Assembly (NCBI GenBank): GCA_033439255.1
Contig: CM065878.1
Location: 4,402,001-4,466,000, forward strand
Length of the DNA: 64,000 bases
Source of the DNA: Hericium rajendrae
Lineage: Eukaryota; Basidiomycota; Agaricomycetes; Russulales; Hericiaceae
Direction: 5' to 3'
Part shown: positions 262 to 28,043 of the stretch, one piece after another
How positions within the stretch are numbered: the stretch's first letter is position 1
Layout of the letters: each line of letters begins with the position of its first letter
Notes under the pieces: generated by a model
What the model was told of the DNA's origin: nothing
Database searches by the model: none
The model's input: only the letters and a program-made list of their open reading frames with translations
Translations under genes and position numbers: made by a program

Positions 262-343
262 AGGTACGCGTTAAACATTGTTCCTGTATCCAGTCTATCT
301 AATATTGGTGTTTCATTAATAGCAATATACTGCACCATCTGTT

Positions 344-1293: not shown

Positions 1294-1880
1294 GAACACC
1301 GTCTTGTCTAGCTCGGCCTGGATATAGGTCTGGCGTGCCGAAAAGTTTTTTCCTTCTTGATGACTCACTGCAATAAGTATCAGCTTTTGTCTTTATGCTT
1401 TGTTCTTAACCCATCCCTATACTATCACATACTGCATTCTTTTTTTTGCTCACAAAATACGGTAGGCGAGATACAATTAGTCTCCCAGAGGCAGAGTTGA
1501 CAGAACTCAACGTGCCTCAGGATCGTCTGTCTGACGATACAATGTTCGCGTGGTTTTAATTTTTCTCGGAAGTTGGTTCTGGGTGCTCACTTTCATGGGG
1601 TTCGTGTTTCCGACGAGTCGTACATATCTGCAGCTGATCCATTCGCCATGAAAGTTATGTCAGTAAAAATCAGATGTTTATTGTCATGAATTATGTTTTC
1701 CGCAGCACAATACACGGAAAAGGGCTGCGAAGTGTCGAGCAACGGGGATTGAACGGATGTCACAATGGTCATTTCTGAGCGCCAGACTATCGGATCGCTG
1801 ACTCAGCACGCTCGGTATGCTTGCCTGCCTTGCATTGGACTCAGCAAAGTCATTCTGGCCTTCTCCACCACAGGCTAGCC
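1294..1880. other. Intergenic, presumed PRP16 upstream region
   Basis: AT-richer than the flanks, with T-runs near 1441 and no sustained open frame. It presumably holds the promoter of the helicase gene that starts at 1881. I see no recognisable motif beyond that. Confidence 0.4.
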
Positions 1881-6730
<4,850 letters not shown>

Positions 6731-6893
6731 CATGGATCAATTGAAGTTCAATCGCATATTTATCTCGTGTTCATCTCTTATACTAGATGTTCATCACGGC
6801 TGTTTTCCATGACCTCGTATTATGATGTCAAAGCGTGTAATGTAATGATAACTTGTCCTACTAGCCCACACATACCAGCTGTTCGGACACGCA
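6731..6893. terminator. Convergent 3' ends of PRP16 and IND1
   Basis: A 163-base gap between two stop codons facing each other. It is AT-rich and must hold both polyadenylation regions. No exact AATAAA was relied on. Confidence 0.4.
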
Positions 6894-8165
6894 CTACGAA
6901 GTTCTAGCAAAGGATCCCCAGATCTTGTCCGCAATGCCTTTCATGGTTTCTTTCCACTTGAGACCACCCGCACCATCAACCTTCTGTAATCCGGTATCGC
7001 TCATCAGACCGTAGGGCAGACCTGCATCGCCGCCTGTGCTGACGCCAGATACTAACGGCAATTCTCCGAGCACCGGCACCCGAAGCTTCTGAGCAGTAGC
7101 ACCAAACAGCTCAGAGGAGCCAAATAGGTAGTGCGGAGTCGTGCAGGAGGGGCATAAGAAATAAGACTGGTTCAGGACAAGTCCAGTGACCTAGAGCTAT
7201 GTCAATCGCAGAGCAAAAGCAGGATGACCAGCAGGACATACGGGAACGCCGACTTTGCGAAACATAGCAATGCCTTTGCGAACATCAGAGAGGGCTACAT
7301 CTTGCGGGGTGGACACGATGACCGCGCCTACGAATTGACCATGAAAAATGGAATTCTAATGACGTACAATCTATGCTCACCATCGACCTTGACGAGCTGC
7401 CCTAAAGTCAGTGGCACATCCCCCGTACCAGGAGGCATGTCGACGACGAGGACATCAAGACCGGGGCTCGAAGAGTCTCCACCAGCAGCGAAGCGCCAAT
7501 CCACGTCGAAGAGGAGCTGCTGTACAGCCTTCTGCACCATTAGCCCGCGCCATATGACTGGGACATCGTCACTGGTGTCAGACTCAGAAGAGCGCGGCAG
7601 AAGAAACCCCATGGACATGCAGGGTATCCCATGATTCGTTAGAGGGATTAGAGCACCAGCTAAACGCGTGGTTAGTATCAATGTAAAGAAATCGAACATA
7701 GACAACATACAAGGTGTGAGCTCAGGCTCGTCTGCACGGTCAAGACCCATGAGCTTAGGAATGGATGGACCGAAAATGTCGAGGTCTAGTACTCCCACAC
7801 GGGGCCGAATGGACTCACTGCGCATGGCAAGCGCAAATGCAAGGTTTACTGGTGAACACACTGCGTGAATTCGTTGTTCAACAGTTTATCGTGAGTACAC
7901 ACACCTGCAACCGTGCTTTTACCAACACCACCTTTTCCACTCGCCACCACCAAGACTTTCTTCACATGAGGAATAGGCCGCTTTACGATCGGGCCACTTC
8001 TCCGAGGAATTTGAGGGGGAGCGTTCGCGGAGGATCTTGGTAAGCCCTGGCTAGGTCAATGACTTCCGTGAACGAACATGCAAGGTGGTTTACCAGAGGG
8101 TTTTCATGGTGTATGCGGCATGACGTGGAGAAGCTCCTGCGGCAGACGCTGAATCCGCGAAACAT
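6894..8165 (-). CDS. IND1: Mitochondrial Fe-S carrier P-loop ATPase IND1 / NUBPL (Mrp family)
   Basis: Mrp/NBP35-type ATPase that delivers Fe-S clusters for complex I assembly in mitochondria. Six exons, 8165-8094, 8046-7905, 7848-7711, 7659-7381, 7327-7242 and 7190-6894, sum to 1014 nt (337 residues) in phase. The N-terminus [16 protein letters not shown] is rich in R and S with no acids, as expected of a mitochondrial presequence. The deviant Walker [10 protein letters not shown], the [10 protein letters not shown] switch region and DMPPGTGD are all present. A CPSC pair near the C-terminus is the cluster-binding CxxC of this family. Intron 2 ends just before VNLAFALA. It is divergent from the tRNA isopentenyltransferase gene, with about 365 bases between the two starts. 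Confidence 0.93.
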
Positions 8166-8530
8166 TTACAACAGGTCCAGTCCCGCAGGGAAGCTACGTA
8201 GATTTTGAGGTGAAGTTCGCACAAGTAGTGCAATGAAACACGATGGATGGAACTTACGGGGCTATACGAGGCAGAACTCAGAGCTATGCACCGTGCTTAC
8301 CACGGATAAGAAAAGCAGAACTGCGGCGGATCTTGTTGGTAAATGACAAGGAGGGTTGAGAGCTCAGGATGGTAGGGAAAGATGACCGTTACTTAGGATT
8401 GGCGGCCATTCTCTGCGGCCCGCTGTGCGGACCGCACCGGGCCGTGATCTGCCGCTCCCATTCGACAAATACTTGGTTCAAGTTGTCCAGAACAACTTCG
8501 TCCTCAGAATCAGATGCTACAACCAGTGGA
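8166..8530. promoter_or_regulatory. Divergent promoter between IND1 and TIT1
   Basis: The two genes point away from each other here. The frame of TIT1 stays open back to an ATG at 8369, so part of this gap could be coding or 5' UTR. No TATA-like box stands out. Both products act in or on mitochondria, which would make a shared promoter sensible, but that is inference. Confidence 0.45.
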
Positions 8531-10359
8531 ATGTTGCATTGGTTTCGTCGAATCTTATCCCCTCTCATGTCATCTTCCCCTCTAATAGCAATCTGTGGAA
8601 CGACCGGTGTCGGCAAATCTAAGCTCGCCATAGAGCTCGCTCTGAAGCTTTCAAAAGGTCCTAGTATCAACGGATGGCACGGTGCAAGGATAATCAACGC
8701 AGATTCCATGCAAGTGTACAAGGGATTGGATATCTTGACAAATAAAGTGCCACTGCACGAAAGACATGGCGTCGAACACGCCTTGATGGACTTTAAGAAT
8801 CCTGGTGAACAGTACGTCGTCGGCGAGTGGGTTCAGGACACGATCGAGGAGGTGGCATATTCATCTCCTTTCCCTGTACGATCAGATCCTGACACATTTC
8901 CGTAGATATCCGCAGCCCACAAAGAACGCAAGGTACCAATTGTAGTTGGAGGCACTGGTTACTGGATTCAACACTTGCTCTTTCCCAACCGGCTGGCCAG
9001 CGATCCGACTCCTTCCAGTCCGGCGAAGACACCAGTGGATATGTCTGAAGAACTGAAAAAATCTCTCACGAAATTGCCTCCAGAGCTTTTGGATCTCTTC
9101 AATATGCTTCCAGACACTCCGCCAACCGCGTCCGACGATCCGAAAGCCGCGTTTGCTTTGCACGCATTGCTCAATGCACTTGATCCTACAGTAGCCAGTC
9201 GATGGCACTGGAAGGACACGCGGAAGGTGTTACGCAGTCTCTCTATCATGAGAGACACAGGTAGAACACCAGGCGAGATCTTCTCTGAACAGTCGCGCAC
9301 GGTCGTCAGACCAAGGCCAGTTTGCCAATCTATTGTATCATTTACCCAGAAACTGATAATCCGCGTCATAGATATCGTGCTCTGTGTTTCTGGTTATATG
9401 CGAGTCCGGATGTTCTAAATGTACGACTTGACGAGCGCGTAGATGCGATGCTTGCTGTGAGTGCATTCGAGACCGGGTCTATTTAGGCTGTTCAAGGGAT
9501 GCATTTCAGCAAGGCGTGTTGGGTGAGATTCAAGAATTAAGAACACTTGTCGCCAGCCCACTCTCGGGAAGTGTTGCATCGGATGTGGATTATACAACGG
9601 GCATATATCAATGCATCGGTCAGTCATAAGGTTCCAATCCATACGGATGAAGAACTCAAGAATCTGACATGCAGGGTATAGAGAATTTGATGCCTACCTC
9701 AACGAGACATCGCCTTCAGAGGAGTCCTATCAAAATGCTGTTCAGGCTATGAAACTGTCAACGCGAAAATACGCTAAGAGACAAATATCGTGGATCCGCA
9801 ACAAACTTTTGCCCGCCATCTATGCGTCAGTTGATCCTGCTGTTCCCCAATCCGACGATCCTGCTGCGTTTCTTTTGGACGCAACCGGTAAATAATCATC
9901 GTCGTTGTTACTTTCTGTAATTCATTGACAATATGCAGATCTGGATAGATGGAAATATGATGTTCAGGGTACGGCAATCAGTATAACAGAACGTACAGTA
10001 CACTCTCTTGATTTCCACAGGATTATACTGAGCTTAGAAGCAGGTTTTCTTCGGCAGGAGCCCCTACCAGATCCGCTCTTATTATCCGGATATGCAAAGG
10101 AAATGCTTTCCGTCTCACTCAAGCCAACAAGGTAGGCAATGTTTTTGCTGACAACTCACTCTCGACGAGCATGTCTAACAGACAATCTAGTCCAGTCGCT
10201 GTTCTCGATGCCCAACGCAAGGTGATCTGCCCTACGTGCACGCTCGATGATCATCAGCCTGTCATGATCGATGAGAGAAACTGGGCCGCACATGCGAAGA
10301 CAAAGGTCCACAGACGGCTGGCGTCGCCTCGGGATCCACGAAGGCCTGAACATAGGTGA
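8531..10359 (+). CDS. TIT1: tRNA dimethylallyltransferase (isopentenyltransferase), full-length copy
   Basis: Adds the isopentenyl group to A37 of tRNAs reading UNN codons (MOD5/TRIT1 family). Eight exons: 8531-8851, 8906-9315, 9372-9456, 9510-9618, 9675-9887, 9939-9992, 10038-10131, 10191-10359 (1455 nt, 484 residues, in phase). Walker A is GTTGVGKS near residue 20. DSMQVYKGLDI and VVGGTGYW are the family's substrate motifs. The C-terminus carries a U1-type zinc finger, CPTCTLDDHQP then HAKTKVHRR, found in eukaryotic members. The ATG at 8531 gives MLHWFRRILSPL, a plausible mitochondrial leader; in-frame ATGs at 8369 and 8567 are alternatives, the latter giving a cytosolic form. The intron after exon 2 has no GT donor in phase; AG|GCCAGT at 9314 is the only fit. 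Confidence 0.93.
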
Positions 10360-11167
10360 CTCGGATGATCCTGATATAACATGGACTGGAAGGCAGCCAT
10401 AAGATAGGGCATGAGATGTATCCTCTTATGATACGTCGAAACATCCCGTATTTGCTGTCGGAGCATCTCGCTGAAGGCTGAGCTCGACAAGAGCGACATC
10501 AATCCCTCTTCATATAACACGGTGTTCGGTGCGCTCCCGGAAGGACAATCATTGGCGCAAAATTATCCTTCGACCATGGCCGAGTAGGCCAACGCCTCTC
10601 AATGCTTATGTCTAGACTTCTAATAATACGAAATATTCTATCATGGACGGAGAGAATACATATCAGGAGGTGATGTGGATCTTGCAACTTCGTTCGCGAC
10701 TCTGTCTGCTGAGTAAACCGACATGCAGCCAGAACTGCTAGATGATGAGCATTCGGAAGCGAGGCCGCGATCACACTTAGGGAGGGTTGGTGCGCAGGTG
10801 CGCAAGCCCGCGCTAGTGCTCAAATCGTAGCTCGACGCACAGAGAAAGGGTAAATGACGTGCATATCTCCCAGTGACGCATACTTAAAGCAAAGACTGTC
10901 TGTCTTCCGGAGGTTCCTGCGGGGCTAGGCGACTGACTTGAGATAAGGACGAGATGCATTTATTCAACCTTGGGGACTGGTACAGTATAAGAATACGAGA
11001 TGACAATACCCCATAGCAAGGACTCAAGTAACCCATCTAGATTGTTATATAGATACGTGCCAAGACAATGAGCAAAATAAATAAATACGAGGGCGTCGAG
11101 GACGGGATGAGCAGCCTTAATCAAGAGCCATCGGAACATTCCATAAATAGTTTGTTTAATCGGAAAG
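10360..11167. other. Spacer between TIT1 and membrane gene (unit 1)
   Basis: No gene that I can support. Minus-strand open pieces (for example 10499-10774) recur in unit 2 at 17172-17537 but with shifted ends and small indels, as expected of non-coding DNA inside a duplication. Confidence 0.5.
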
Positions 11168-12842
11168 TTAGACCATTGCTCCACTGTCGGCGGGCTTCCC
11201 CTCGCTCTTCTCTACAGTTGGTAGATCCTGAGCCCCACCATTATCACCGCTATTGTCGAGCCTTGAGGTTGTCGACTCTGTCTCCTGCACCGTTCGAAAC
11301 TGGATGCCCGACATAGTGCCAGTTCCGCGCTCACGAAGAGCGAGCTGATGCGAAGCCGGAACACGGCCATTTGCAACGTAACTGGCACGCAGAGAGTCCT
11401 GCACGTCATCGAACCCCTTTCCCATGCCGACACGAACGATGATGAGGGTCGGAGCAATTGCCTGTGCAGGTGACAATGCCAGTTAATAAAGCTCATGTGA
11501 GAACTGACTGAGCGCAATCCGATTCACTCACCAGAAGCTGCAGGCTAATTGCAGATGCTACAATCTGTCATGATCACCCTAAATAAAGAGTTTGACATTA
11601 CAGAATCAAACTCACAGGCTGAATAGTAGGAAAAGTTGCAATGATCGAATCAACGAGGAGGGCTGTGGAATAGAGTGCACCGGATTCAACCCTTCATAAA
11701 GGTTAAAAACGATTAGTAAAGACCATAATCATGTCGTTTGATAACCAAGTCACACACAGCATTGCGATTGCAGAATAATATCTCACTGTAGAATTTGGGC
11801 CAGCCTTGATATCTCTTGTCATCCTCCATATTCTTAGTGCTGTTAGATTGTGAAAAGTCATCTTCAGCCACCATTTTAATTGACTTTGAATGACAGTATA
11901 CCTGCTAGGAACGTTGTGATGATATTTGTTGCTAAAGACAACCAATTACCGATGTTGGAGACTACAGCGCTCCGAGCTACAAGTGCTTCTTCAGTTTCGA
12001 GGGTCGGAGAGCCACTCTTCTGAAGGGTCACGAGTCTACCGTAATAGTATATGCTCATGATATTGCATGCTGGATTCCAGTATGCTGTGAGTGTTTTATA
12101 CATATCATAATGATGGCACAAACCTGTAGTGGCAAGTAGTAGAACTAATGGAAGAGCAATAATCCGTTTCTTGCTACCCCAGAGCACGAAGCACCGATGT
12201 ATCTGTGAAACTTCATCAGCATCCTGCTCCTATAAGGCCGAGACAAGTGTTACGCACCAGGAGTGAATCGGCAATATAGCTGAAATATATTACATCAATT
12301 AGAAAGGTAGAAAAAGATACGAATGTCTCCGTACAACAATGCCGCGGCCACACTGTCCTCTAGGATAGTGAATGAATTGTTTATTATCACTTCATGGTGC
12401 CTAGCCGGAATATCTGAAAGAATGCAAGACACAAGGCCGCTATCCTCGAAGTTACTTGAAGAAGTTGTTTTGGGTGTTAGAAGCACGTCGAGAAGGTCGG
12501 CAACAAGAAGGACAGTAATAAAGGCAAAAAGGAGGTTGGTCACGATGAGATAGCGCATATTTGGCCGTTGCCAAATCGTGACGTAGATAGAACCTGCGAA
12601 GAGCATCACATAGATGCCTATACAATCTAAGCCCCGAGAGAATATTCAACAAACAGGGATGACACTCACCATATAGAACTGCATGTGTCTGGGCAGATAA
12701 GTCAGTGGGACTGTCATGCAGCAGCAAGTCCTGACTTGCCCAAAGGGTTGCCAACTCTATCTGCAGACATAACCACGAGTTAATCGAAACCTCAGTAGCC
12801 AAGAGTGTAGTGTCATACCCTGTAATTGGATTCGCCGCACAT
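11168..12842 (-). CDS. Seven-helix membrane protein of an agaricomycete family, copy 1
   Basis: Eleven exons (12842-12819, 12760-12740, 12688-12670, 12617-12335, 12279-12258, 12202-12124, 12084-11902, 11839-11758, 11691-11616, 11564-11532, 11461-11168) sum to 1116 nt, 371 residues, in phase. The pattern matches a family expanded in mushrooms: an opening LYGIYVMLFAGSIYV helix, ADSLLIHRCFVLWGSK between helices, LSLATNIITTFLA, and the signature end AIAPTLIIVRVGMG followed by a polar cytosolic tail. Function is unknown; the topology is receptor-like but no ligand is known. The first three exons are only 24, 21 and 19 nt. The intron after exon 2 begins GCAAGT, a GC-AG intron, where the sister copy has GTGAAT. 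Confidence 0.85.
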
Positions 12843-12925
12843 ATCTAAATCTGAAAATGACGCAAGACGTCGAAGAAGGGAACTGATCGCTGCAGTGATA
12901 TACCGCAGGCCGCAGCTTTAACTCG

Positions 12926-13282
12926 TCAGGTGGATGGACGGAAACCCGCACGGGAGTTGGGAGTGACACAGTATGCGTCGAATGCAGAAGGATCCGTAGG
13001 GCATCGGCTTATATTCGTAGTCGGCGCATAGCCATGTTCGCCCAAGTTAAGATGGATCATGATTGTGATGAAGAAGACTGGCCTTCTATGAGATTTCTTC
13101 CATTGGTGCGATAGCGTACGGACTCGGCCGCGTACTTTGCACCAAACTATCATCAGAGCAACAGTGAGGCAGCGACTGCTGTCCTGATCTTGTTTCACAT
13201 CAACCAAGTACACCTTGATGGTCAATGTGTCTCCACATATTCCGCAATGCCTCGAGCAGTTGGAACCAATTGGGTCGGCCAT
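12926..13282 (-). CDS. Small Cys-rich ORF upstream of the membrane gene, copy 1
   Basis: Begins MADPIGSNCSRHCGICGD and continues to a CxxC-like region, so it could form a zinc ribbon (C-x3-C-x2-C, then Cys further on). The same start recurs in unit 2. After about residue 40 the two copies part because of a small indel, so only the first part is shared. It could be a small gene, a 5' UTR ORF of the membrane gene (same strand, about 80 bases upstream of its start), or chance. I do not recognise the family. Confidence 0.25.
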   Translation of the reverse strand: MADPIGSNCSRHCGICGDTLTIKVYLVDVKQDQDSSRCLTVALMIVWCKVRGRVRTLSHQWKKSHRRPVFFITIMIHLNLGEHGYAPTTNISRCPTDPSAFDAYCVTPNSRAGFRPST

Positions 13283-14103
13283 GGATATTCTAAGCAGCCT
13301 GCATCATGTCCATGTTGAAAATCCATGCCCATGAGCTGTGCCATGTATATTTTTGCGCGCAGATACTGAACAGTTGATCATGAGATGTATCCCCGACGGT
13401 TGTGCTTCTCCCGCGATATAGAACGCAACGCCGTGCTAAAAGCAGCGCAAAGGAGCAGTTGTGCTGATTGAAGCTCACGGGCTCTGCGCACGCAGGCAAT
13501 GGGGAACGAAGGAGGATGCCATGTGATGCAGTGCGTGCAGCAGTGCTGTTCGGAGGGTGCAGGCGCGAGCACCAAGCTACGAAGGGACGTCTATTGCGAG
13601 GCCATCATACAAGATCTGCCTGTGACATATCATGAACACGTACTATAGATCTGATACAACGTACCTACTGGGTGAAACAAGGGTAGAAAAACTGGGCGAC
13701 GTCGGATAAGGAACGAGGGAATGATCTACCAATGTACCATGTACGCACTAGCACGGACACCCCAAATAGGTGACGTATGCTGGTTGACAATCTCGAGAAA
13801 TAGTGGTGGAGAGAAATTTCACACTGAGGTTGAGCCAAACAACTCCTCTGCGTCGAGACGAGCTGCAGGAACTAGGTAACGAAATTGTCGGAAGAAGAAC
13901 GTTGGGTAGCGGAGTTTAGCCGCGGCGTACGCGTCAATTGACTGTAGCTTCATGACATCTCAACGTTCGACCCTATCCGCGCTGGACCTTTTGAACGGCA
14001 AACAATGGCATACTAGATACATTATTTAAAGGCTGCATCTTCCCCAGTTTCTTTTACGCCGTCGACCATTGTAGCCGTCGACCAAATCTCCCACTTTTTC
14101 ACC
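13283..14103. other. Spacer between membrane gene and IES6 (unit 1)
   Basis: No supported gene. It should hold the IES6 promoter and perhaps that of the minus-strand unit. A purine/pyrimidine-mixed stretch around 13900-14000 is well kept in unit 2 (20470-20580), suggesting it lies in the promoter. Confidence 0.4.
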
Positions 14104-14880
14104 ATGTAGGTGCACCCGTCCATCCAATCTCCAGCACACTCACACTCACGCCCATCCTCCAGGCCACCCAAAGGCTCCACCCGCAAGCGCGTCGGCGTCT
14201 CAGCAAGTGCCGAAGGCACAGCGACACCCCAAGCCCCCGTGCGTCTCTCCTCTCCCCACGCACACAGCATGCACGCGCTCATCCATCGCACAGACCCTCG
14301 CAGAGCAGCTCTCCTACCTGAACAGCCCGCGTCCGTTCAAAAACCCGCACTACACGAAGAATGTGAACCGGCGCGCGAAGAACCTGAAGAACGTGCTGGC
14401 GCAGGAGCGCGAGCGCGAGCGGCAGCTGCGTGAGAGACGGCGCACAGAGAAAGAGCAGGAGATGGAGGTCGATGGGGCGGCTGCGGGCCAGGACGCACAG
14501 GCGGTGGAGGAGGACCTGGCGACATGTAAGTGGCATTTCATTTGGGTTGTTCGTTTCTGAAGGTGTATTGTCGGCAGATCTCTCTATTGAAGCACCGCCG
14601 TCGGTGCTGCCTCAGCGACACTACTGCGATATCACGGGTCTTGAGGTGCGTCTCGTCGCTTCTTGTGATAAGTCTCGAAATTCATGGTTTTTTCAGGCTC
14701 CGTACACTGATCCAGCGACCGGGCTGCGATATCATGACAAGAGTATCTACGAGTTGATCAAGGGCCTGGTACGATACACCATACCGCGTATCTCGCTGAG
14801 CTGACTCCTGTTGCTCTCAGACCATCAGCGCCGCGAAGGATTATCTGGCGGCGCGGGGCGTAATTCCTATCGTCAAGTAG
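14104..14880 (+). CDS. IES6: INO80 chromatin-remodelling complex subunit Ies6 (INO80C, YL1-C domain), copy 1
   Basis: Nuclear subunit that with Arp5 couples the INO80 ATPase to nucleosomes. Six exons: 14104-14105, 14163-14238, 14294-14525, 14578-14645, 14697-14768, 14821-14880 (510 nt, 169 residues, in phase). The family core SYLNSPRPFKNPHYTKN and a basic coiled region NRRAKNLKNVLAQ are followed by the YL1-C domain: RHYCDITGLE, APYTDPATGLRYHDKSIYE, DYLAARGVIPIVK. The start is odd: the only in-phase model places AT at 14104-14105 before a GTAGGT donor and the G of the start codon at 14163, so an intron splits the ATG. Unsplicéd, the ATG is followed at once by TAG. Both copies share this. Confidence 0.9.
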
Positions 14881-15085
14881 AATCCAGATTTTAGCATATG
14901 GGGACTATACGTCCACTGGAAAGCATTGTTTGTGAGTTATTGGGATATAGAAATCCCGCCGTGTACCATTATCTCCTAGCATCTATTCGTTGTCGAAGAA
15001 TTCTTGGAGCACTCTTTACAGCCCGGGCATGAATAATCAATAGCATAACATGCTAGGCACAAACTCCTTCGGAATCACCTATCCG

Positions 15086-15441
15086 TTAAACCAATTCAAG
15101 GGACCACTCCAAGATCTCGGCATTCTCATACGTATCCTTTTCATTGCTGGTCGATATTCCCCTTATTCCCTTGTCTGCCCCGTCGATCATCACCTTGGCC
15201 AGATACTCTACACCAACAGTTAATCCAGAGAGCAATGTCTCGCCGACTCCAGTCAAGAATGATTCAGCAGGGAGAACACCACCATGACGGAAGGCGACGG
15301 CTTTGAAACGAGCATGGCTGGCTGACTTGGATGAGGTCGGACTCAACTCGATCCTGCAATTTACCAGCACAGTTCAGCAATTTATTTTTCAGAACTAAGA
15401 TGAGGGACGGCAGACCTTGACCATATGCGTCAATGCCATCA
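15086..15441 (-). pseudogene. 3' fragment of an atypical SDR (NAD(P)-binding) gene, cut by the duplication junction
   Basis: Minus-strand frame ending in TAA at 15086-15088. It reads GGVLPAESFLTG, GLTVGVEYLAKVMIDGA and YENAEILEW, the C-terminal pattern of NAD(P)-binding epimerase-like proteins in fungi; the matching N-terminal Rossmann part sits only in the second unit at 22261-22500. A piece with DDGIDAYGQG lies just upstream. The gene is cut at about 15441, where the sequence switches to TIT1 intron 1, so this copy lacks the cofactor-binding end. Family assignment is moderate. Confidence 0.6.
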
Positions 15442-15511
15442 TCCTCGTTCAGGAGGTTACATATTCGTCTCCTTTCCTTGTGCGAATACGTTCTCATGTT
15501 GACTCCCGTAG

Positions 15512-16965
15512 ATATCTACTGCCCATAGAGAATGCCAGATACCAATTGTTGTTGGAGGCACTGGTTATTGGATCCAACATTTGCTGTTTCCCAACAGGCT
15601 GGCCAGCGGTCCCGATCCATCAAGTCCGACGAGGACACCAGTGGTCATGTCTGAAGGACTGAGAAACTCTCTCGCGAAATTGCCTCCAGAGCTTTTGGAT
15701 CTCTTCAATATGCTTCCAAACACTCCGCCATCCGCGTCCGACGATCCGAAAGCCGCGTTTGCTTTGCACGCATTGCTTAATGCACTTGATCCTACAGTAG
15801 CCAGTCGATGGCACTGGAAGGACACGCGGAAGGTGTTGCGCAGTCTTTCTATTATGACAGACACTAGTAGAACGCCAGGTAAGATTTTCTCTGAGCAGTC
15901 GCGCACGGTCGTCAGACCTAGGCCAGTCTACCTATCTATTGCATCGTTTACCCAGAAACTGATTCTCCTCGTCGTAGATACCGTGCTCTGTGTTTCTGGT
16001 TATATGCGAGTCCGGATGTTCTAAATGTACGATTTGATGAGCACGTAGATGCGATGCTTGCTGTGAGTGCATTCTCGACCGGGTCCAGTCGTGTTATTGA
16101 AGGGGTTCCTTTCAGCAAGACGTTTTGGAGGAGATTCAAGAATTGAGAAGACTTGTCGCTAGCCCGTCCCCGGGAAGTGTTGCATCGGATGTGGATTATA
16201 CAACGGGCATATATCAATGCATCGGTCAGTTATAAGGTTCCAATCCATACGGATGAAGAACTCAAGAATTTGACCTGCAGGGTATAGAGAATTTGATGCC
16301 TACCTCAACGAGAGATTGCCTTCAGAGGAGTCCTATCAAAATGCTGTTCAGGCTATGAAACTGTCAACGCGAAAATACGCTAAGAGACAAATATCGTGGA
16401 TCCGCAACAAACTTTTGCCCGCCATCTATGCGTCAGTTGATCCTGCTGTTCCCCAATCCGACGATCCTGCTGCATTTCTTTTGGATGCAACCGGTAAATA
16501 ATCATCGTCTTTCTTACTTTCTTTAATTCATTGACAATATGCAGATCTAGATAGATGGAAATATGATGTTCAGGGTACCGCAATAAGTATAACAGAACGT
16601 ACAGTACACTCTCTTGATTTCCTTAGGATTATACTCAGCTTAGAAGCAGGTTTTCTTCGGCAGGAGCCCCTACCAGATCCGCTCTCATTATCCGAATATG
16701 CAAAGGAAATGCTTTCCGTCTCACTCAAGCCAACAAGGTAGGCGATGTTTTTGCTGACAACTCACTCTCGACGAGCATGTCTGACAGACAATCTAGTCCA
16801 GTCGCTGTCCTCGACGCCCAACGCAAGGTGATCTGCCCTACGTGCACGCTCGATGATCATCAGCCTGTCATGATCGATGAGAGAAACTGGGCCGCACATG
16901 CGAAGACAAAAGTCCATAGACGGCTGGCATCGCCGCGGGATCCACGAAGGCCTGAACATAGGTGA
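15512..16965 (+). pseudogene. tRNA isopentenyltransferase copy lacking exon 1 (no P-loop)
   Basis: Seven exons match TIT1 exons 2-8 with exactly the same lengths: 15512-15921, 15978-16062, 16116-16224, 16281-16493, 16545-16598, 16644-16737, 16797-16965. All remain open and all splice sites match, including the AG|GCCAGT donor at 15920. Missing is exon 1 with Walker A and the DSMQVYKG motif, so it cannot be a working transferase. It keeps the tRNA-binding central part and the C-terminal CPTC...H...H zinc finger. Substitutions include GTGYWIQH kept but ASDPTPS changed to ASGPDPS. The duplication is either recent or the remnant is under some constraint; there is no start codon of its own in a good context. 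Confidence 0.85.
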
Positions 16966-17749
16966 CTCGGACGATCCTGATATAGCATGGACTGGAAGGC
17001 AACCACAGCCACGAGATAGGGCATGAGATGTATCCTCTTATAATCCATCGAAACATCCCATATTTGCTGTCGGAGCACCCCGCCGAAGGCCCAGGTCGAT
17101 GAGAGCGACGTCAATCCCTCTCCATATAACACGGTGTTCAGTGCGCCCCCGAAAGGACAGTCATTGGCGCATTACTCATCCTTCGACCATGGTCGAGTAG
17201 GCCAACCCCTCTCAATGTTTATGTCTAGACTTATAATGATACGAAATATTCCATCATGGACAGAGAGAATATATATCAGGAGGTGATGTGGATCTTGCAA
17301 CTTCGTGCGCGACTCTGTCTGTTGAGTAAACCGACATGTAGCTAGAACTGCTAAATGATGAGAATTCGGAAGTGAAGCCGCGATCATATTTAGGGAGCCC
17401 GCGCTAGTGCTCAAATCGTAGCTCGACGCACAGAGAAAGGCAAATGATGTGCATATTTCCCAGTGACGCATAATTAAAGTAAAGACTCTGTCTTTCAGAG
17501 GTTCCTGCAACTGACTCGAGATAAGGACGAGATGCATCTATTCAACCTTGGGGACTGGTACAGTATAAGAATACGAGATGACACTAAGTAGCCTATATCA
17601 AGGACTCAAGTAACCCATCTAGATAGTTATATAAATACGTGCCAAGACAATGAGCAAAATAGATAAATACCAAGGCATCGAGGACGGGATGGACAGCCTT
17701 GATCAAGAGCCATCGGAACATTCCATAAATAATTTGTTTAGTCGGAAAG
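16966..17749. other. Spacer between the TIT1 remnant and membrane gene (unit 2)
   Basis: Counterpart of 10360-11167, with small deletions (for example near 17395 and 17510). No gene supported. Confidence 0.5.
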
Positions 17750-19418
17750 CTAGACCATTGCTCCACTGTCGGCGGGCTTCCCCTCGCTCTTCTCTACAGT
17801 TGGTAGAACCTGAGCCCCACCATTATCACCGCTATTGTCGAGCCTTGAGGTTGTCGACTCTGCCTCCTGCACCGTTCGAAACTGGATGCCCGACATAGTG
17901 CCAGTTCCGCGCTCACGAAGAGCGAGCTGATGCGAAGCCGGAACACGGCCATTTGCAACGTGACTGGCATGCAGCGAGTCTTGCACGTCGTTGAACCCCT
18001 TGCCCATGCCGACACGAACGATGATGAGGGTCGGAGCAATCGCCTGTGCAGGTGACAAGGCCAGTTAATAGAGCTCATGTGAGAACTGACTGATGCGATT
18101 GGCTCACTAGAAACAGTTGGTTAATTGCAGATGCTACAAGCTCAATGTGTCATGGTCGCCCTAAGTAAAGATTTTGACATGACAGAATAAAACTCACAAA
18201 CTGAATAGTCGGAAAAGTTAAAATAATCGCATCAAGGAGGAGGGTTGCGGAATAGAGTGCACCGGATTCAACCCTTCATGAAGGGCAAAAACGATTAGTA
18301 AAGATCATAGCCATGTCATTTGATAACTAAGTCACCCACAGCATTGCGATTGCGGAATAATATCTCACTTTAGAATCTGGACCAAGATCTCTTGTCATAC
18401 GCCATATTCTTAGTGCTGTTAGATTGTGAAGAGTCATCTTCAGCCACCATTTTAACTGACTTTGAATAACAGTATACCTGCTAGGAACGTTGTGATGATA
18501 TTTGTTGCTAAAGACAACCAATTACCGACGTTGGAGACTACAGCGTTCCGAGCTCCAAGTGCTTCTGTAGTTTCGAGGGTCGGAGAGCCACTCTTCTGAA
18601 GGGTTATGAGTCTACCGCCATAGTATACGCTCACGATATTGCACACTGGATTCCAGTATACTGTGAGTGTTTTATACATATCATAATGATGGCACAAACC
18701 TGTAGTGGCAAGTAGTAGAATTAATGGAAGAGCGATAATCCGCTTCTTACTACCCCAGAGCACGAAGCATCGATGTATCTGTGAGAGTTCATCAGCATCC
18801 TGCTCCTACAAGGCCGAGACAAGTGTAACGCACCAGGAGTGAATCGCCGATAAAGCTAAAATATATTACATCAATTCAAAAGGTAGAAAGAGATACGAAT
18901 GTCTCCGTACAACATGGCTGTCGCTACGCTGTCCTGTAGGATAGTGATTGAATTGTTTATTATCACTTCATGGTGCCTAGCCGGAATATCTGAAAGAATG
19001 CAAGACACAAGGCCGCCATCCTCGAAGTTACTTGAGGAAGTTACTTTGGGTGTTAAAAGTACGTGAAGAAAGTCGGCAACAACGTGGACAGTCACAAAGG
19101 CGAAAAGGAGGTTGGTCATGATGAGATAGCGAATATTTGGTCGTTGCCAAATGGTGACGTAGATAGACCCTGCAAAGAGCATCACATAGATTCCTACGCA
19201 ATTTAAGCCCGAGAATAATATTCAACAAACAGGGATGGTGCTCACCATAGAGAACAGCCCCTGTCTGAGGAGATATGTCAGTGAGACTATCACGCAACAG
19301 CAAGTCATGATTCACCCAAAGGGTTGCCAACTGTATCTGCAGACATAACCACGAGTTAATCGAAACCTCAGTAGCCAATAGTGTAGTGTCATACCCTGTA
19401 ATTGGATTCACCGCACAT
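17750..19418 (-). CDS. Seven-helix membrane protein of an agaricomycete family, copy 2
   Basis: Same eleven-exon layout as copy 1 and still open throughout, starting at ATG 19418 and ending with TAA at 17750 (about 369 residues). Exon 4 (19193-18911) has the same 283 nt; exon 8 is six bases shorter, an in-frame loss of two codons. Key pieces are kept: LYGIYVMLFAGSIYV, IGDSLLIHRCFVLWGSK, LSLATNIITTFLA, AIAPTLIIVRVGMG. The intron after exon 2 starts GTGAAT here, not GCAAGT. Both copies therefore look usable, unlike the TIT1 and SDR pieces beside them. Confidence 0.83.
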
Positions 19419-19420
19419 AT

Positions 19421-19849
19421 CTAAATCTGAAAATGACGCGAGACGTTGAAGAAGGGAACTGATCGCCGCAATGATATACCGCAGGCTGCAGCTTTAGTGG
19501 ATGGAGGGAAACCCGCACGGGAATTGGGAGTGACACAGTATGCGTCGAATGCAGAAGGATCCATAGGGCATCGGCTTATATTCGTATTCGGCGCATAGCC
19601 ATGTTCGCCTAAGTTAAGATGTATCATGATTGTGATGAAGACAGAAGGCTGACCTTCTATGAGATTTCTTCCATTGGTGCGATAGCGCACGGACTCGGGC
19701 GTACTTTGCACCAAACTCACATCAGAGCAGTTGAGGCAGCGACTGCTGTCCTGATCTTGTTTCACATCAACCAAGCACACCTTGATGGTCAATGTGTCTC
19801 CACATATTCCGCAATGCCTCGAGCAGTTGGAACCAATTGGGTCGGCCAT
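19421..19849 (-). CDS. Small Cys-rich ORF upstream of the membrane gene, copy 2
   Basis: Open for 142 codons from MADPIGSNCSRHCGICGD, with RCLNCSD about 25 residues on, so a CxxC...CxxC zinc-ribbon layout is complete here. A possible donor (gtgagt) follows NCSD. The end of the ORF touches the first exon of the membrane gene (start at 19418). Coding status is uncertain because the whole unit was copied together. Confidence 0.27.
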   Translation of the reverse strand: MADPIGSNCSRHCGICGDTLTIKVCLVDVKQDQDSSRCLNCSDVSLVQSTPESVRYRTNGRNLIEGQPSVFITIMIHLNLGEHGYAPNTNISRCPMDPSAFDAYCVTPNSRAGFPPSTKAAACGISLRRSVPFFNVSRHFQI

Positions 19850-19861
19850 GGATATTTTTAG

Positions 19862-20676
19862 CAGCCCATATCATGTCCATGTTGAACATTCACGCCCATG
19901 AGCTGTGTCATGTACATTCTTGCGCGCAGGTACTGAACAGTTGATCATGAGATGTATCGCCGACGATTGTGCTTCTTCCGCGATGTACAATGCAACGCCG
20001 TGCTAAAAGCAGCGCAAAGGGGCAATTGTGCTGATTGAAGTTCACGGGCTCTGCCCACGCAGGCAGTGGGGAACGAAAGACGATGCCATGAGATGCAATG
20101 CGTACAGCAGTGCTGTTCGGAGGGTGCAGGCGCGAGCACCAAGCTACGAAGGGACGTCTGTTGCGAGGCCGTCATAGAAAGTCAGCTTGTGATAAATTAT
20201 CATCACATGCTATAGGACTAACGAACGTACTTGCCTGGGTGAAACAAGGGTAAAAAAAACTGGGCTACGTTGGATGAGGAACGAGGACATGGTCTACCAC
20301 CCACGTACTACCACGGACACCTCGAATAGGTTATGTATATGGTTGATATACCCCAGAAATAGTGGTGGAGGCCGTTTTCAACGTTGAGGTTGAGCTAAAC
20401 AATCCAGTGCGTCGAGAGGAGCTGAATTAAGGGAACAACGAAGTTGTCACGAATCGTCGGAAGAGGAACTTTGGTAGCAGAGTTTAGCCGCGGCGTACGC
20501 GTCAATTGACTGTAGCTTCGTGACATCTCAACGTTCGACTCTACCCGCGCTCGACCTTTTTAACCACAAACAATATTTGGCATACTAGATACTGTACATC
20601 GTTCAAAGGCTGCATCTTCCCCATTCTCTTTTGCCCGACCGACGTAGCCGTAGACTGAAATCCCCACTTTTCCACT
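19862..20676. other. Spacer between membrane gene and IES6 (unit 2)
   Basis: Counterpart of 13283-14103. No supported gene; holds the presumed IES6 promoter. Small indels distinguish it from unit 1. Confidence 0.4.
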
Positions 20677-21458
20677 ATGTAGGTGCACCCGTCCATCCAA
20701 TCTCAGCACACTCACACTCACGCCCATCCTCCAGGCCACCCAAAGGCTCCACCCGCAAGCGCGTCGGCGTCTCAGCAAGTGCAGAAGGCACAGCGACACC
20801 CCAAGCCCCCGTGCGTCCCTTCTCTCCACACGCACGCACGCATCCGCTCACCCATCGCACAGACCCTTGCAGAGCAGCTCTCCTACCTGAACAGCCCGCG
20901 CCCGTTCAAAAACCCACACTACACGAAGAACGTGAACCGGCGCGCGAAGAACCTGAAGAACGTGCTCGCGCAGGAGCGCGAGCGCGAGCGGCAGCTGCGC
21001 GAGAGACGGCGCACGGAGAAGGAGCAGGAGATGGAGGTCGACGGCGGGGCTGCGGGCCAGGATGCAGTGGTGGAGGAAGACCTGGCTACGTGTGAGTGGC
21101 ATTTCATACGGGTTGTTCCTTTCTGAAAGGTGTATCGTGTCTGCAGATCTCTCTATCGAGGCACCGCCGTCGGTGCTGCCCCAGCGACACTATTGCGATA
21201 TCACGGGTCTTGAGGTGCGTTTCGCCGTTTTTTTTTTCTGGTGACAAGTTTCGGAATTCATGGCTTGTCTTTTCAGGCTCGGTATACTGATCCAGCGACC
21301 GGACTGCGATATCATGACAAGAGCATCTACGAGTTGATCAAGGGCCTGGTACGATACATCGTACCGTTTATCTCGCTGAGCTGACTTATTTTGCTCAGAC
21401 CATCAGCGCCGCGAAGGATTATCTGGCGGCGCGGGGTGTAGTTCCTATCGTTAAGTAG
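20677..21458 (+). CDS. IES6: INO80 complex subunit Ies6 (INO80C), copy 2
   Basis: Exons 20677-20678, 20735-20810, 20863-21091, 21147-21214, 21277-21348 and 21399-21458 sum to 507 nt, 168 residues, in phase. One codon is missing from exon 3 relative to copy 1; the YL1-C domain differs by a few residues (ARYTDPATG for APYTDPATG). The start codon is again split AT|G by the first intron. All splice sites are intact, so this organism seems to carry two usable IES6 genes. A T-run in intron 4 (21229-21237) is longer than in copy 1. Confidence 0.9.
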
Positions 21459-21664
21459 GGACTGGATTTCGGTATATGAGGACTGCCGTTCTCTACTAGA
21501 GCGCGTTGTTTGTAAGTTATCGGGATATTGATATCCGCCGTGTACCATTATCTTCTAGCATCTATTCGTTGTCGAGGAATTCTTGGAGCACTTTTTACAG
21601 CCCGGACATGAATAGTCAACAGCATAACATACTAGGCACAAAGTCCTTTGAAATCACCTATCCG

Positions 21665-22500
21665 CTAAACCAATTCAAGGGCCCACTCCAAAATCTCGGC
21701 GTTCTCATATGCATCCTTATCGTCGCTGGCCGATGTTCCCCTTGCTCTCTTGACTACCCCGTCAATCATCACCTTGGCCAGATGCTCTACACCAACAATC
21801 TACCCAGAGAGCAACGTCTCGCCGAGTCCCGTTATGAGCCGTTCAGCAGGGAGTATACCACCAATGCAGAAAATGAGGGCTTTGAAACAAGCATGGCTGG
21901 AGCTGAACTCGATGAGGTCGGACTCAACTCGGCCCTGCAATTCATCAGTACTGCTCAATAACTGTCCTCAACGAGCGCAGACAGACCTTGACCAAACACG
22001 TCAACGCCATCATCTTCGTGTATCCTTGATTGGCTTACTGTGTTCTGTCTGCCCCGCGCCCGCTGCAGTAGCAAAACCTAAAACGGCTCTTCGAGCAGCC
22101 GCTTCTCAGCAAATTTAGCCAAAAAGCATGCAGCAGCGAGCATGTATCGGTGCGAAACGTGCTCATAGACGTCCTTACCAGGAAAATCCGTCTTCCCTCC
22201 TATGCACCTCCACCAGTTCAGCACAGCGCCCACGCAGGCGAGACGCTGGGTCAGAGCTCACTAGATACACGCGTCGCAATCTTGCAATTGCAACGCGCCC
22301 ACGAGCTCCTCATCGTCGAGGTCGCACTTGCTTAGGTCTTCGCGTATGACGAGGCCTGACTTATCCTGCTTCACATCCGCGTTGAATGTGGGTGACCCGC
22401 GCACAACGCCTGTGACCTTGTCGAGGCGCGGATCGGCGAGAGCCTCGAGCAGCACCTGCCTGCTCACGAAACCAATGACGCCGGTGATGGGGACATGCAT
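21665..22500 (-). pseudogene. Full-span but decayed SDR (NAD(P)-binding) gene
   Basis: The N-terminal part starts at ATG 22500: MHVPITGVIGFVSRQVLLEA is the Rossmann nucleotide-binding loop of atypical SDRs (usual form GATGFVG), followed by the strand-helix DKVTGVVRGSPT. The middle (YMLAAACFLAKFAEKRLLEE, RFCYCSGRGA) and the end (GGILPAERLITG, YENAEILEWALEL) follow in order. The frame is broken at several points, including a TAG after CDACI near 22261 and a TAG in the segment matching SGLTVGVE, so this only full-span copy looks dead. A gene such as this would be expected to act as a small-molecule oxidoreductase or epimerase. Confidence 0.65.
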
Positions 22501-23012
22501 TCTTGTCGGTGCAGGATGTAAGGAGGATACGATAACGCATTCGACGCGTACTGGCAAACATCAAGATTTTGAATGGTGAATATTTGAATATTTAGCTCAT
22601 CAGAACACGCGCAAGCCATGGCGCGGCATGGTTAGATTCCACTGGGAAACTGCCACAGACGTACCGTCACGGTTGCATACACGGCTCGCTGCAGCAGTTA
22701 ACAAAAGAGCGTGCTGCGTGCCCGAGGACACATGGCTGCAGTTGTTATGAAATAACTGTCTGAACGTCCGAACAACCTTGCGACCCGAGCGCTTCAGTCG
22801 AACAGCCGGAGGCTTTGGATCCTAACACGGACAAACAACCTCCTCGACTTTTGATTCCGTATCACGTGTGATCTGTATACGGTCAAGCAGGACACGTATC
22901 GCTACGTATCGCAGCACCACACGCTCTTTTCTTTTCTAACCCATCGCTTAGCTCGATATCATAAAGCATCGAGGCCAACTAAAGCGACAATTTCTGATCT
23001 TCTGCCGCCGCC
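22501..23012. other. Intergenic, presumed promoter of the Dcr2-like gene
   Basis: No open frame of note. The plus-strand gene that follows has a Kozak-like GCCGCCATGG at 23006-23016. Confidence 0.4.
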
Positions 23013-25515
23013 ATGGCAATCACCTGCGGCAGGTTTCTTCGTTTCCTGCGCTCCATATTCATTCCAGCCACCAACCATCATCGCGTTCTCCTGCCTCCTT
23101 ACTTTCTTTTTCGTTTTATATCAGCCTACCCACGGCCCAGGCGAACTCCAGCGGCTAGGCTGGCAATCATGGGACACCATCTCTTCCCGGCCCATTACAG
23201 CTGGTGCGGACGGTGACGTCAATACAGGCGGCGCAGGGCAAGGCGCAGATGAGGACACGGCGGTACCGGATGGCGTCGACTGGTGGAACGTCTCGCGCCC
23301 ACACCACAGCAGGTGGACAGTGCGAGCTTGCCGCTGGATGTGTGGGCTCCGCTCCTTCCCCGCGATACGGGTCGTACGTTCGATCCTTTTATATAGCTTG
23401 AATCATAACGCTGAATGCAATGCTACCAGTGTCCGAAATAACGGTGGTCAGATGCATGTTTGATATGCGGATGGGTGATATGTGCGCGCCGCCGTCGACG
23501 AAGGAGGAAGAGGCGGTCAAGGGGAAGTGGGTGCGCGTTGAGCCAGACCTCAATCTCCAGTCTGGGATGTGGCATCTCGTGCGTCAGTTTCTCCTCTAAA
23601 ATGCTCTTCTTATGCTCATTATCGCGAAGCATATATACTACCGCCGTACTCGCCGACGCGATGTGCCTCTCATCACGGACATCCTTCTCCTTGATTCCTC
23701 AACCAGGCCACCAGACCCCGACTCCTGGACGAAGGCCTCGCGTTCCCTTCGTGATGGAGTCTATCGCACACCCTCGTTATATCTCTGGTACCGCACAGGA
23801 AAGACCCTTGGTGATATGTCAACGGAAGAACGCGCCGAGCTCATCACCGAGGTCGACGTCCTGTACGGCGACGGGCAGCCCTGGTTCGGTTTCGAGAAGC
23901 TCTCGCCGCCTACCATGGAAGCCCAGGGAAGACGCAAGGAGAACACATGGCTCACCATCCGCCGCGGCGTAAAAAGTACGTCTCTCCTTCTCACCTTACC
24001 CCCCTTCCTAACCACGGCGTGATCCCTCACAGCTCCCCCACGCCCGCACCGTTACACTTCTCCCACGACGGCAAGTTCAAGATCCTCCAAGTCGCAGACC
24101 TGCACTTCTCCGTCGCCGACGGCCCCTGCCGCGACGTCCCGCCCGACTTCACCTGCGAGCCCGGCGCCTACAGCGTGACCGCCTCGCTGCTCTCGCGCAC
24201 GCTCGATCTCGAGAAGCCGGACCTCGTCGTCTTCACGGGCGACCAGCTGAACGGGCAGGGCACGTCGTGGGACGCCAAGTCCGTGCTCGCGAAGTTCAGC
24301 GCGGAGGTCGCGAAGCGGCAGATCCCGTGGGCGGCCGTGTTCGGGAACCACGACGACGAGGACGCGCGCGCGACGGGGGGGCGCCGCGACCAGGTCAAGA
24401 TGATGCAGGCGCTGCCGTACAGCCTCGTCGAGGCGGGCCCGGAGGATATACATGGCGTGGGCAATTATGTGCTGAAGGTGTTTAGCGCGGATGCGAGCAA
24501 GACGCAGTTGTTGACGCTGTATTTCCTCGATTCGGGGAGCTATTCGAAGGGCTTCATCGATTGGTTTGGGTTCTTTATGCCCACGGAGTATGATTGGATT
24601 CGGCAGAATCAGATCGACTGGTTCCTCCAGGAATCTGGTGCGTATATACGCCATTGATCGTACGTTCTGGTGCTTACTTTGCCGTTCAGCTTCGGTTCCC
24701 GTGATGCAGCGCCCATTCACGCCCGACACTGGAAAGGACTTAGGTGACGTCTGGCATCGGCAGGCATCAGGGCAGCTGACCCCAGAGCAGAGCAAAATCG
24801 CTAAGCCCAATGCGCTCATGTTCTTCCACATGCCTCTGTACGCGTCTGCTCTTTTTCATCTATCTCCAGCACTAATTTGCATCTTGTTTCAGGCAAGAAT
24901 CCTATGGCACAGCCGACACGGACCCGACCACAGGTCGCCTGCTCGACGTCGGTGAGCACGATCTGGAGCGCAGCGGCGCGGCAAAGACCAACGGCGGGCT
25001 TCTCGAGAAGGGTCTGCTGAAGGCGACCGAGAGCGACCACACCGCCAGCGGCAGCATTCCTGAAGTCAAGGTCGTTGGCAACGGCCATTGCCACGGTGAG
25101 TGTCTCACTCTCAGCGTAAAGTTGATTGTACTGATGACGGGCGGTAGTCACCGAGAACTGCAGACGCGTGAAGGGCGTGTGGTTGTGCTTTGGCGGCGGA
25201 GGCTCCTACCAAGGCTACGGCAAAGTTGGGTAAGCTCTATCCACGTACCGATTCCCATCTCAGACCACTGACACCAATATTAGCTTCGACCGCCGCTTCC
25301 GTGTGTATGACATCTCAGACTACGGTGAGACAATCCGCACATACAAACGTTTGGACACCGGCGATATCATAGACGAGATGGTGCTTGCTGGGAAAGGCGC
25401 GCCACCCCGTACCAGGGCTGAGATAACATTACCATTTAGCAGAGGACGTGGAGTATCTTTATTCACTGTACCAGTAGACAAACGCATTATGGAGATGGTC
25501 GATACCTTTGGGTAG
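23013..25515 (+). CDS. Dcr2-like metallophosphatase (calcineurin-like phosphoesterase)
   Basis: Family of yeast Dcr2 (START entry, UPR). After an N-terminal exon (23013 on, MAITCGRFLRFLRS, basic then hydrophobic, possibly a signal anchor) I read exons to 23373, 23430-23578, 23630-23975, about 24033-24637, 24690-24837, 24893-25095, 25148-25229 and 25284-25515. The metal-binding blocks are visible: FKILQVADLHFS, VVFTGDQLNG, AAVFGNHDDE, VVGNGHCH and the end CFGGGGSYQGYGK, FDRRFRVYDI. Two joins do not fit in phase: near 23300, where the frame moves from VDWWNVS to the frame of LPLDVWAPLLPRDTG, and at the intron ending at 24032. The first exon-intron layout is therefore approximate. Identification is secure; the exact model is not. 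Confidence 0.85.
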
Positions 25516-25727
25516 TGTAACATGTGGACATCTGCGCGACCGGCGCCCGCCGTCGCCAAACCAAGAAAGTCTTGGGAAACGCTTGTTTGCTTTGACATGG
25601 CGCCCATGCCCGCCCTCCCGATCCCGTCCTTCATTCGTTCTTTTCTCTTCGTCATTGGTGATCACCCCCAGAGCGTGTTGAAATCCGGCCGTCGCATTGC
25701 AAACCGGCGATTCCGAGCGCGACGGAC

Positions 25728-27739
25728 ATGATGGAGTACGGAACAAGGCCAGTCGAGTACGGAGCAAGGCAAGTTCAAAGCCTGCATGGCACATCGCCAC
25801 TGGACACCCTCGTCCGGCGCACGTCGTCTCGAGAGGCAGAGTCGAGCCTCTCAACGACACCGGGAAAGCTGGCGTCCGCCGCCGTCCCGCTTGACCAGTC
25901 GTTCGAGACGCCCCAGGTCGCGACTCCCCCGAAGCAACTGCAGGGCAAGGGCCGCCCGCCGTCCTCCCCGCTCCTGCATACGCGCTTCCAGCGCACGTCC
26001 ACCGGCACCACCTCCTCGTACAACACGTTCAACGCGTCGTTCGATCGCTCGATCGGCGACGAGCGCCTGCGGGACGACGAGAGCGTGTACTCCACCCCCA
26101 CTTCGCCGCCTGCCCATCGGCAGCTCTACCCCAACCCCTGGGACGGTGGCCTGCGTGCGTCGGAATACGAGCCAGGCCGGGCGTCCGACAATGTGGATGG
26201 CGGGGAGTACTACTCGGGCGTGCCGTCGATGATGGAGTACCGGGAGTCGTGGCGGAGCGATGGCACGGTGCGGGAGCAGCCCGAGGACATCGCCACCGCG
26301 ACGGGCCCGAACCACGGCCTGTGGACGCAGGGCCGGCCGCGGCGCAGCAGCGACAGCCAGCATATCGACCCTTTTGTCTTCGAGACGCAATCAATTGACC
26401 GTCAACAAGACGCGGCGGTGCCCACCGTGGTGATATCTTCCGAGCCTGACCCCGCGGCTGCGCACGACTCGCCCTTCCCGTCTCCATCCTCCATGGGCTC
26501 TGCAAGCTCCCGCGCAGGCCGCGTCCCCTCGGCGGTCCTCTCGCCGGCGACACGAATTTCTCGAGGCCCCGCCGCCCAAAGGACGTGCCCTCGGATGCGG
26601 AGACCAAGCGCGCCGTGATAGAGCGCAACTCGCATCGCACGCATGCAGGTGCCTCGCTGCGGATGGCTGCTACCAGCACCTATTCCCCGTCGCTAGCGTC
26701 GTCGGCCACCTCCCTCGCGAGCCATTCCAACGCTTCCCTCGCGAGTCGCTCCCACCCTGAAAGGCCCGAAATACCGAGATCATTGTCCGTGCGCTCCGTC
26801 TCTCCATCACCCACGGGATCAGCATTCCCCTCTCGCCCTTCCTCGCCGCTGCGCTCCCAACCACCAGCGGCGCCTCCACCGACTGCGCCTCTTCCCCCGC
26901 CCCCAGGCCAGACCCAGATCATCACCACCCCACACCAGCCCCCGCCCCTCAGCCCCGCCTCCCCCAGCAGCCTCTACTCCGGCTACTCCTTCTACCAGCT
27001 CGACAGCCGCACGCCCTCGCCCACCCCCTCAACCCTCCAAGTCCCCGGCCTCCCCCCCACGCCGACCCTCCCCTCCCCCTCCACCCCCACGCCCGCCGCG
27101 CCGCCCCCAACCGCCGGACGACGACCTCCAGCTCGGCATCAAGCACCACGAGGCGAACCGCCTCCCCGAGAGCGCCGCGTGCTTCGAGCGCGCAGCCGCC
27201 GCAGGCTCGGGCGTCGGCATGCTCATGTGGGGCCTCGCGCTGCGGCACGGCTGGGGCTGCGCGGCGGACGAGGCGCGCGCGTTCGGCTGGCTGCGGCGCG
27301 CGGCCGAGCGCGCGGTCGGCGACCTCGAGCGCGCGCGGCAGGACGGGCGCGCGGCGGACGCGGTGCGCTCGGAGCTCGTGCTGGCGATCTATGAGGTCGG
27401 GCAGTGTTTCTTCCAGGGGTGGGGCGTGAAGAAGGATGCGAAGATGGCTGTCGTAGGTGTTTTTGTGCTGTGTGGGTGTGGGGATGCTGATGTGGTTGTA
27501 GAGCTATTTCCGCGTTGCGGCGGATCTGGGCGACGCGGATGCGCAGCAGGAGCTCGCGTTCTGTCTTGCGAATGGGAAGGGGTGCAAGAAGGACAGGAAG
27601 GAGGCCGCGAAGTGGTATCGCGCAGCCGTGAGTCCCCTTTTCGCTGCAGATGGGCGCCCACGCTGATTTGTTTGTTTAGGTCAAGCAGGGCGCGAGCGAC
27701 GTCGGGCTTGCGTGGATTTACAAGGAGAAGTTCCAATAA
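25728..27739 (+). CDS. SEL1-repeat protein, Dsf2-like, with long disordered N-terminus
   Basis: The first 400-odd residues are low-complexity, rich in S, P and T (proline runs around 26860-27110). The C-terminal third carries SEL1/TPR-like repeats: ACFERAAAAGSGVGMLMWGL, GQCFFQGWGVKKDAKMAV, FRVAADLGDADAQQELAF, then WYRAAVKQGASDVGLAW. Introns lie at 27453-27501 and 27628-27679; the stop is TAA at 27737-27739. The architecture resembles fungal Dsf2 and the wider Skt5/Chs4-type SEL1 adaptors. The frame slips by one base near 26540 and again near 27105, both beside C-rich runs, so the uninterrupted frames alone would give three separate proteins. Such proteins act as scaffolds; the partner is unknown here. 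Confidence 0.75.
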
Positions 27740-28043
27740 GCGTGCTGTAAATATGGACTGTCATCCCTATCATCGGCCTGGCCTGCTATACTATACAATA
27801 CTTCTCGATACCCCTCTCACTCACTAACATCTCAAACAATGCTGCAATAACCCTTATATCTGAATTATATCATTTTCCACTCATTACGGTCATCAAGCTC
27901 TGCCCATCTGCGAGTCAGATTCTCCAAGGAGCCACATAAATGGAGTCAATCCGACAGATGAACAGTGCAAACCCACAGGCAGATCGGTGAATAAATGTGA
28001 TATATTCTACGACACGCTGAAAGCAATTGCCCACTACTGTAAC

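Follow-up and report, generated by a model that had tools for sequence, protein, structure and literature searches.

A tandem duplication and its junction

The window analysed here, a stretch of 64,000 nucleotides from Hericium rajendrae, covers positions 4402001 to 4466000 of a 5.3 Mb contig (C1) in a genome assembly of 46.8 Mb and 19 contigs. Near its left end lie two adjoining direct copies of a 6.6 kb segment carrying a gene for a tRNA isopentenyltransferase (TIT1), a membrane-protein gene, IES6 and a gene that had been labelled a short-chain dehydrogenase (SDR). Unit 1 (8847-15448) and unit 2 (15451-22019) match on the same strand in a single BLAST alignment of 6,673 columns (88.3% identity with gaps counted), and their global alignment shows 655 substitutions in 6,508 aligned bases (10.1%). 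The tandem duplication proposed in the initial annotation, with gene order and orientation kept across the two units, is thus borne out by self-BLAST and global alignment, and its coordinates agree to within a few bases. As assembled, the locus has the two adjoining direct copies that characterize a tandem segmental duplication.

Genome searches with queries from the TIT1 end and from the right end of the unit each found only units 1 and 2. A query from the interior also found weaker matches of 64-83% on contigs C4 and C1, mainly on C4, which are interpreted as relatives of the membrane-protein gene. For the flanks at 1-8800 and 22100-30000, the genome searches (in one of which 40 of 43 candidates were scored) gave short or weak matches only and no second copy, and Tandem Repeats Finder reported no tandem array at 8000-23000. 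The 264 kb formed by the window and the 200 kb beside it contain two other clean adjacent direct pairs, one of 4.5 kb that is 97% identical and lies in a repeat-rich region (C1, about 4343955-4352927, left of the window) and one of 0.9 kb that is 86% identical (about 4526442-4528260), besides many shorter or overlapping repeats that were left unsorted.

The two units meet at 15449-15450, where two extra bases separate a stretch that resembles the right end of unit 2 from the motif AGGAG, which resembles the 3'-terminal five bases of TIT1 exon 1 and is followed by TIT1 intron 1. The breakpoint contexts show no long homology between the parent sites. The junction had previously been placed at 15441-15447, which is right to within a few bases, and had been described as SDR coding sequence joined directly to TIT1 intron 1; this description has to be amended, as the end of exon 1 precedes the intron and the SDR label is unsupported (see below). 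An assembler normally needs an overlap or leaves a gap. As the join has no long homology and the window contains no N, an explanation by assembly across an overlap or a gap does not fit; the join suits end joining or template switching, not an assembler's overlap. A bacterial promoter scan, which is uninformative for a eukaryote, gave no match at the junction.

Elsewhere in the window, a segment of about 59 bases (1478-1536) resembles at least 38 places (81-90%) on many contigs and both strands; it is not a tRNA according to ARAGORN, which predicted no tRNAs anywhere in the window. At 40998-41286 there is a short direct repeat of local extent, and at 35455-35700 a 39-base inverted repeat. A laccase exon matches 33 solved sequences at similar scores and, together with short introns and a fungal-type IES6, gives the sequence a fungal look. 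No 5.8S rRNA was found in the genome among the 39 of 1,533 candidates that were scored.

Different fates of the four duplicated genes

TIT1 copy 1 (8531-10357, forward strand) is full-length and matches the whole tRNA isopentenyltransferase (IPPT) profile PF01715, with profile positions 1-48 in the frame of exon 1 and positions 49-243 in exons 2 to 8. Exon 1, which ends at 8851, lies almost wholly outside unit 1; exons 2 to 5 were modelled at 8906-9315, 9372-9456, 9510-9618 and 9675-9887, and exons 6 to 8 at 9939-9992, 10044-10131 and 10182-10357. The start of the gene is unsettled, with in-frame ATG codons at 8369, 8531 and 8567 that make longer and shorter forms possible. MOD5 occurs in two forms. 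TIT1 copy 2 (TIT1-2; 15512-16963, forward strand) has no exon 1 and consists of seven exons, all open, at 15512-15921, 15978-16062, 16116-16224, 16281-16493, 16545-16598, 16650-16737 and 16788-16963. Profile positions 1-48, which hold the P-loop, were found at one place in the genome, in TIT1 copy 1, and are absent from copy 2 in the profile search. A scan of 14881-15505 in phase 0 found no ATG with a consensus-like donor that could provide TIT1-2 with a new first exon. Both copies keep a GC-AG intron (9316-9371 and 15922-15977).

IES6 is intact in both units, encoding 169 amino acids in unit 1 (14104-14880) and 168 in unit 2 (20677-21458), both on the forward strand. The YL1_C domain is found in both copies at similar scores (56.4 and 57.2 bits) and copy 1, the one compared with structures, resembles solved Ies6 chains with a best E of 1e-22; the gene can therefore be assigned to IES6/INO80C. 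In the gene models of both units the start codon is split by an intron as AT|G (14104-14105 with 14163 in unit 1; 20677-20735 in unit 2). For a pair in which one copy is neutral the whole time and the other is constrained to some degree, w is expected to be at least 0.5. The maximum likelihood (ML) estimate for the IES6 pair is 0.05 (p = 8e-8 against 0.5), showing that IES6 is constrained in both units. The membrane-protein gene on the reverse strand was modelled in part, with four exon pieces compared (copy 1 at 11168-12760; copy 2 at 17750-19336, with coordinates carried over from the alignment), and with w = 0.36 (ML, p = 0.12 against 0.5) constraint on it is only suggestive. The earlier claim that these two genes were doubled whole agrees with the intact IES6 in both units and, as far as it was modelled, with the membrane-protein gene; a true tandem duplication of both is the best reading. 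A literature search that combined IES6, duplication and basidiomycetes gave no match, which is not proof of absence.

In unit 1 the fourth gene is represented by its tail only (15086-15448, reverse strand), which differs in length from the unit 2 sequence by 2 bases and is thereby shifted in frame. The other remnant still has its head, which extends beyond unit 2 (21665-22500, reverse strand); one TAG terminates its head piece and another occurs within its tail. The gene was read in pieces, without an exon model, so the first of these two stops could fall beyond a missed intron. Both units appear to carry a disrupted frame, each with its own lesions. A further length change is suspected in the head; it falls in a T homopolymer and may reflect a sequencing error. 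The tail has a w of 0.96 (ML), which differs from 0.5 (p = 0.045) and not from 1. Judged from these frames, the gene appears to be dead in both units, even where the head is retained, and was therefore not simply beheaded. Searches with the pieces, which have low sensitivity, gave no Pfam match, no significant SDR among solved structures (one SDR chain had an E of 1.5) and no further genome match at E up to 1. Neither a profile nor a structure match thus identifies a short-chain dehydrogenase, and the gene is referred to here as SDR-like.

Divergence along the units and possible gene conversion

Differences between the units are unevenly distributed. Outside modelled exons, 38 of 163 bases differ at 8852-9560, 205 of 2,530 at 9561-13480, 144 of 872 at 13481-14880 and 104 of 557 at 14881-15448, corresponding to roughly 20% toward either end, compared with 8% in the middle. 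The two outer parts taken together (142/720) are more diverged than the middle (Fisher p = 6e-17), although the segment boundaries were picked after the profile was seen and the middle may contain unmodelled exons of the membrane-protein gene, which would lower its divergence; compared with all the rest of the unit outside modelled exons, the p-value is 2e-11. The same trend is seen within TIT1, where introns 1 to 3 differ at 38 of 163 bases and introns 4 to 7 at 11 of 208 (p = 4e-7). The longest identical run between the units is 156 bases, against a 95% permutation limit of 74, and is exonic.

Patches of low divergence inside the units with diverged ends are the pattern associated with gene conversion, allowing for post hoc boundaries and for the diverged inner patch at 13481-14880. 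This suggests that gene conversion may have homogenised part of the interior, the ends having been protected and left most diverged. Patchy divergence is common to these units and to duplicates that undergo interlocus gene conversion, the subject of PMC3924818 and PMC3790853; the present comparison covers the two copies only.

This profile also affects the dating of the duplication. An exon divergence near 3% had been given initially and taken to indicate a fairly recent event. The value is correct for TIT1 from codon 201 on (15/535), but TIT1 exons 2 to 8 as a whole differ by 6.4% (73/1135) and the units by the 10.1% given above. The estimate of a recent event rested on the least diverged exons and does not hold in view of the outer parts, which cautions that few exons are an unsafe basis for dating such duplications. 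The duplication appears real, old and of a known, ordinary kind.

Decay of the truncated TIT1 and history of the locus

For a gene without its front, TIT1-2 is well preserved: all 12 internal splice sites are kept and no indel separates it from copy 1 in 1,452 aligned bases. The ML estimate of w is 0.32 over all exons, a result of moderate strength (p = 0.034 against 0.5), with 0.37 for codons 1-200 (p = 0.14) and 0.15 from codon 201 on (p = 0.017), and the last 178 codons contain four amino-acid differences. Constraint also seems to act on codons 10-32, ahead of the first in-exon Met, where six changes are synonymous and one is nonsynonymous. An NG86 estimate of 0.23 (bootstrap 0.13-0.39) was dropped, because allowing for transition bias raises it to 0.32 and weakens the test, and ML was used. 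Taken together, the w values place TIT1-2 between IES6, for which both copies are maintained, and the SDR-like gene, for which neither is.

Neutral evolution of one TIT1 copy was simulated with rates taken from introns (371 bases) and from noncoding indels (19 events), using 4,000 runs from each copy. An open frame, all splice sites and freedom from exon indels were retained together in 0 of 8,000 runs; individually, absence of a stop was seen in about 6%, intact splice sites in 20-21% and absence of indels in less than 0.1%. Moreover, a neutral branch alone would be expected to accumulate about 62 amino-acid changes (43-83), compared to the 30 observed between the copies, and an earlier crude check of full neutrality had given P = 0.0055. 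Based on the sequences, therefore, TIT1-2 seems not to have been a dead gene throughout the divergence of the copies.

TIT1-2 nevertheless shows signs of decay. Its IPPT score is 134.8 bits versus 150.9 for copy 1, and it scores below copy 1 against all six solved sequences. Changes could be assigned to one branch through family conservation only; in five alignments TIT1-2 has lost R159 (to H; Arg in 5/5) and G167 (to D; Gly in 5/5), as well as G119 (to S; Gly in 3/5) and E124 (to K; Glu in 3/5, with gaps in the rest). By contrast, the residue found in yeast at codons 6 and 10 is shared by copy 2 but not by copy 1. A rough two-phase sum that assumes w = 0.1 while the gene was functional fits a neutral share of about 30%: it gives 29 differences and a 3% chance of so clean a frame if the last 30% of the TIT1-2 branch was neutral, and 24 differences and a 10% chance if the share was 20%. 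The simulations, the low number of changes and this sum favor a later loss of the TIT1-2 front.

Several explanations of the locus can be weighed against these data. The initial annotation implied that one event beheaded two genes that have both been dead ever since, which needs the fewest events and is in agreement with the near-neutral SDR-like tail, the lesions in both units and TIT1 codons 1-200, which alone are compatible with a w of 0.5; moreover, tandem duplications that cut genes are reported to be frequent in Drosophila yakuba (PMC5460883). The absence of a clean TIT1-2 frame from all simulations disfavors this explanation, which we consider unlikely, and one event beheading two genes does not fit an SDR-like gene that looks dead in both units and a TIT1-2 that seemingly was not dead throughout. 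As described in PMC5460883, the D. yakuba variants are similar to the present locus in being direct adjacent copies in which some genes are duplicated in full and others interrupted by the breakpoints; those variants are polymorphic and mostly young, whereas the units here are diverged and apparently partly homogenised, the cut TIT1 is open, and the two remnants stand head to head without forming a chimeric gene. The main rival is a single old duplication that beheaded TIT1-2 at once and left a truncated product or transcript with a weakly constrained function. This would take one rearrangement and would account for the open frame, the kept splice sites, and the low w and few amino-acid differences toward the end of the gene, but TIT1-2 has no new phase-0 first exon and no P-loop region, has lost family-conserved residues, and appears constrained even before its first in-exon Met, leaving this a possibility of rather low probability. 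It is improbable that selection retains the headless TIT1 specifically as a fragment lacking the catalytic front, with a role such as tRNA binding or regulation alongside the working enzyme.

Two further explanations involve haplotypes. According to PMC4209137, the average difference between two individuals of a single mushroom species can reach 14%. Haplotypes that had diverged before a real unequal exchange brought them together in one chromosome, so that the divergence is older than the join, would account for both the constraint on TIT1-2 and the mosaic divergence. Alleles predict neither divergence concentrated at the ends nor decay of TIT1-2 on one side only, and such an exchange seems quite improbable. 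The same two features argue against two haplotypes wrongly placed end to end by the assembler, as do the join without overlap or gap and the lack of a second copy of the searched flanks. False duplications of this kind are documented in vertebrate assemblies (PMC9516828), and the heterotype duplications described there resemble the present case in that two diverged copies could come from two haplotypes; they differ from a locus with no overlap at the join, with the outer parts most diverged and with one decayed TIT1. We regard an artefact as very unlikely.

The history of this arrangement seems to involve more than one step. Our preferred explanation, put forward tentatively and with less than even confidence, is an older tandem duplication with partial conversion, after which TIT1-2 remained functional over most of its history before losing its front. 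A non-homologous join would have created a true tandem duplication, gene conversion between the neighbours may have partly homogenised the interior and left the ends most diverged, and both units would have retained an intact IES6 and, to the extent that it was modelled, an intact membrane-protein gene. TIT1-2 was probably a complete, functional gene for the greater part of the period after the copies separated. A later deletion over the unit boundary could then have removed exon 1 of TIT1-2 and, with it, the head of the SDR-like pseudogene next to it; as these two heads face each other at the boundary, one deletion would take both. No remnant of a longer, deleted unit was detected, and we infer this deletion and its timing from the slow decay of TIT1-2 only. 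This block of a fungal genome could thus represent a compact case in which genes duplicated together met very different fates, the copies were partially homogenised and a truncated gene decayed late, with the delayed decay of the headless TIT1 as the main point of interest.
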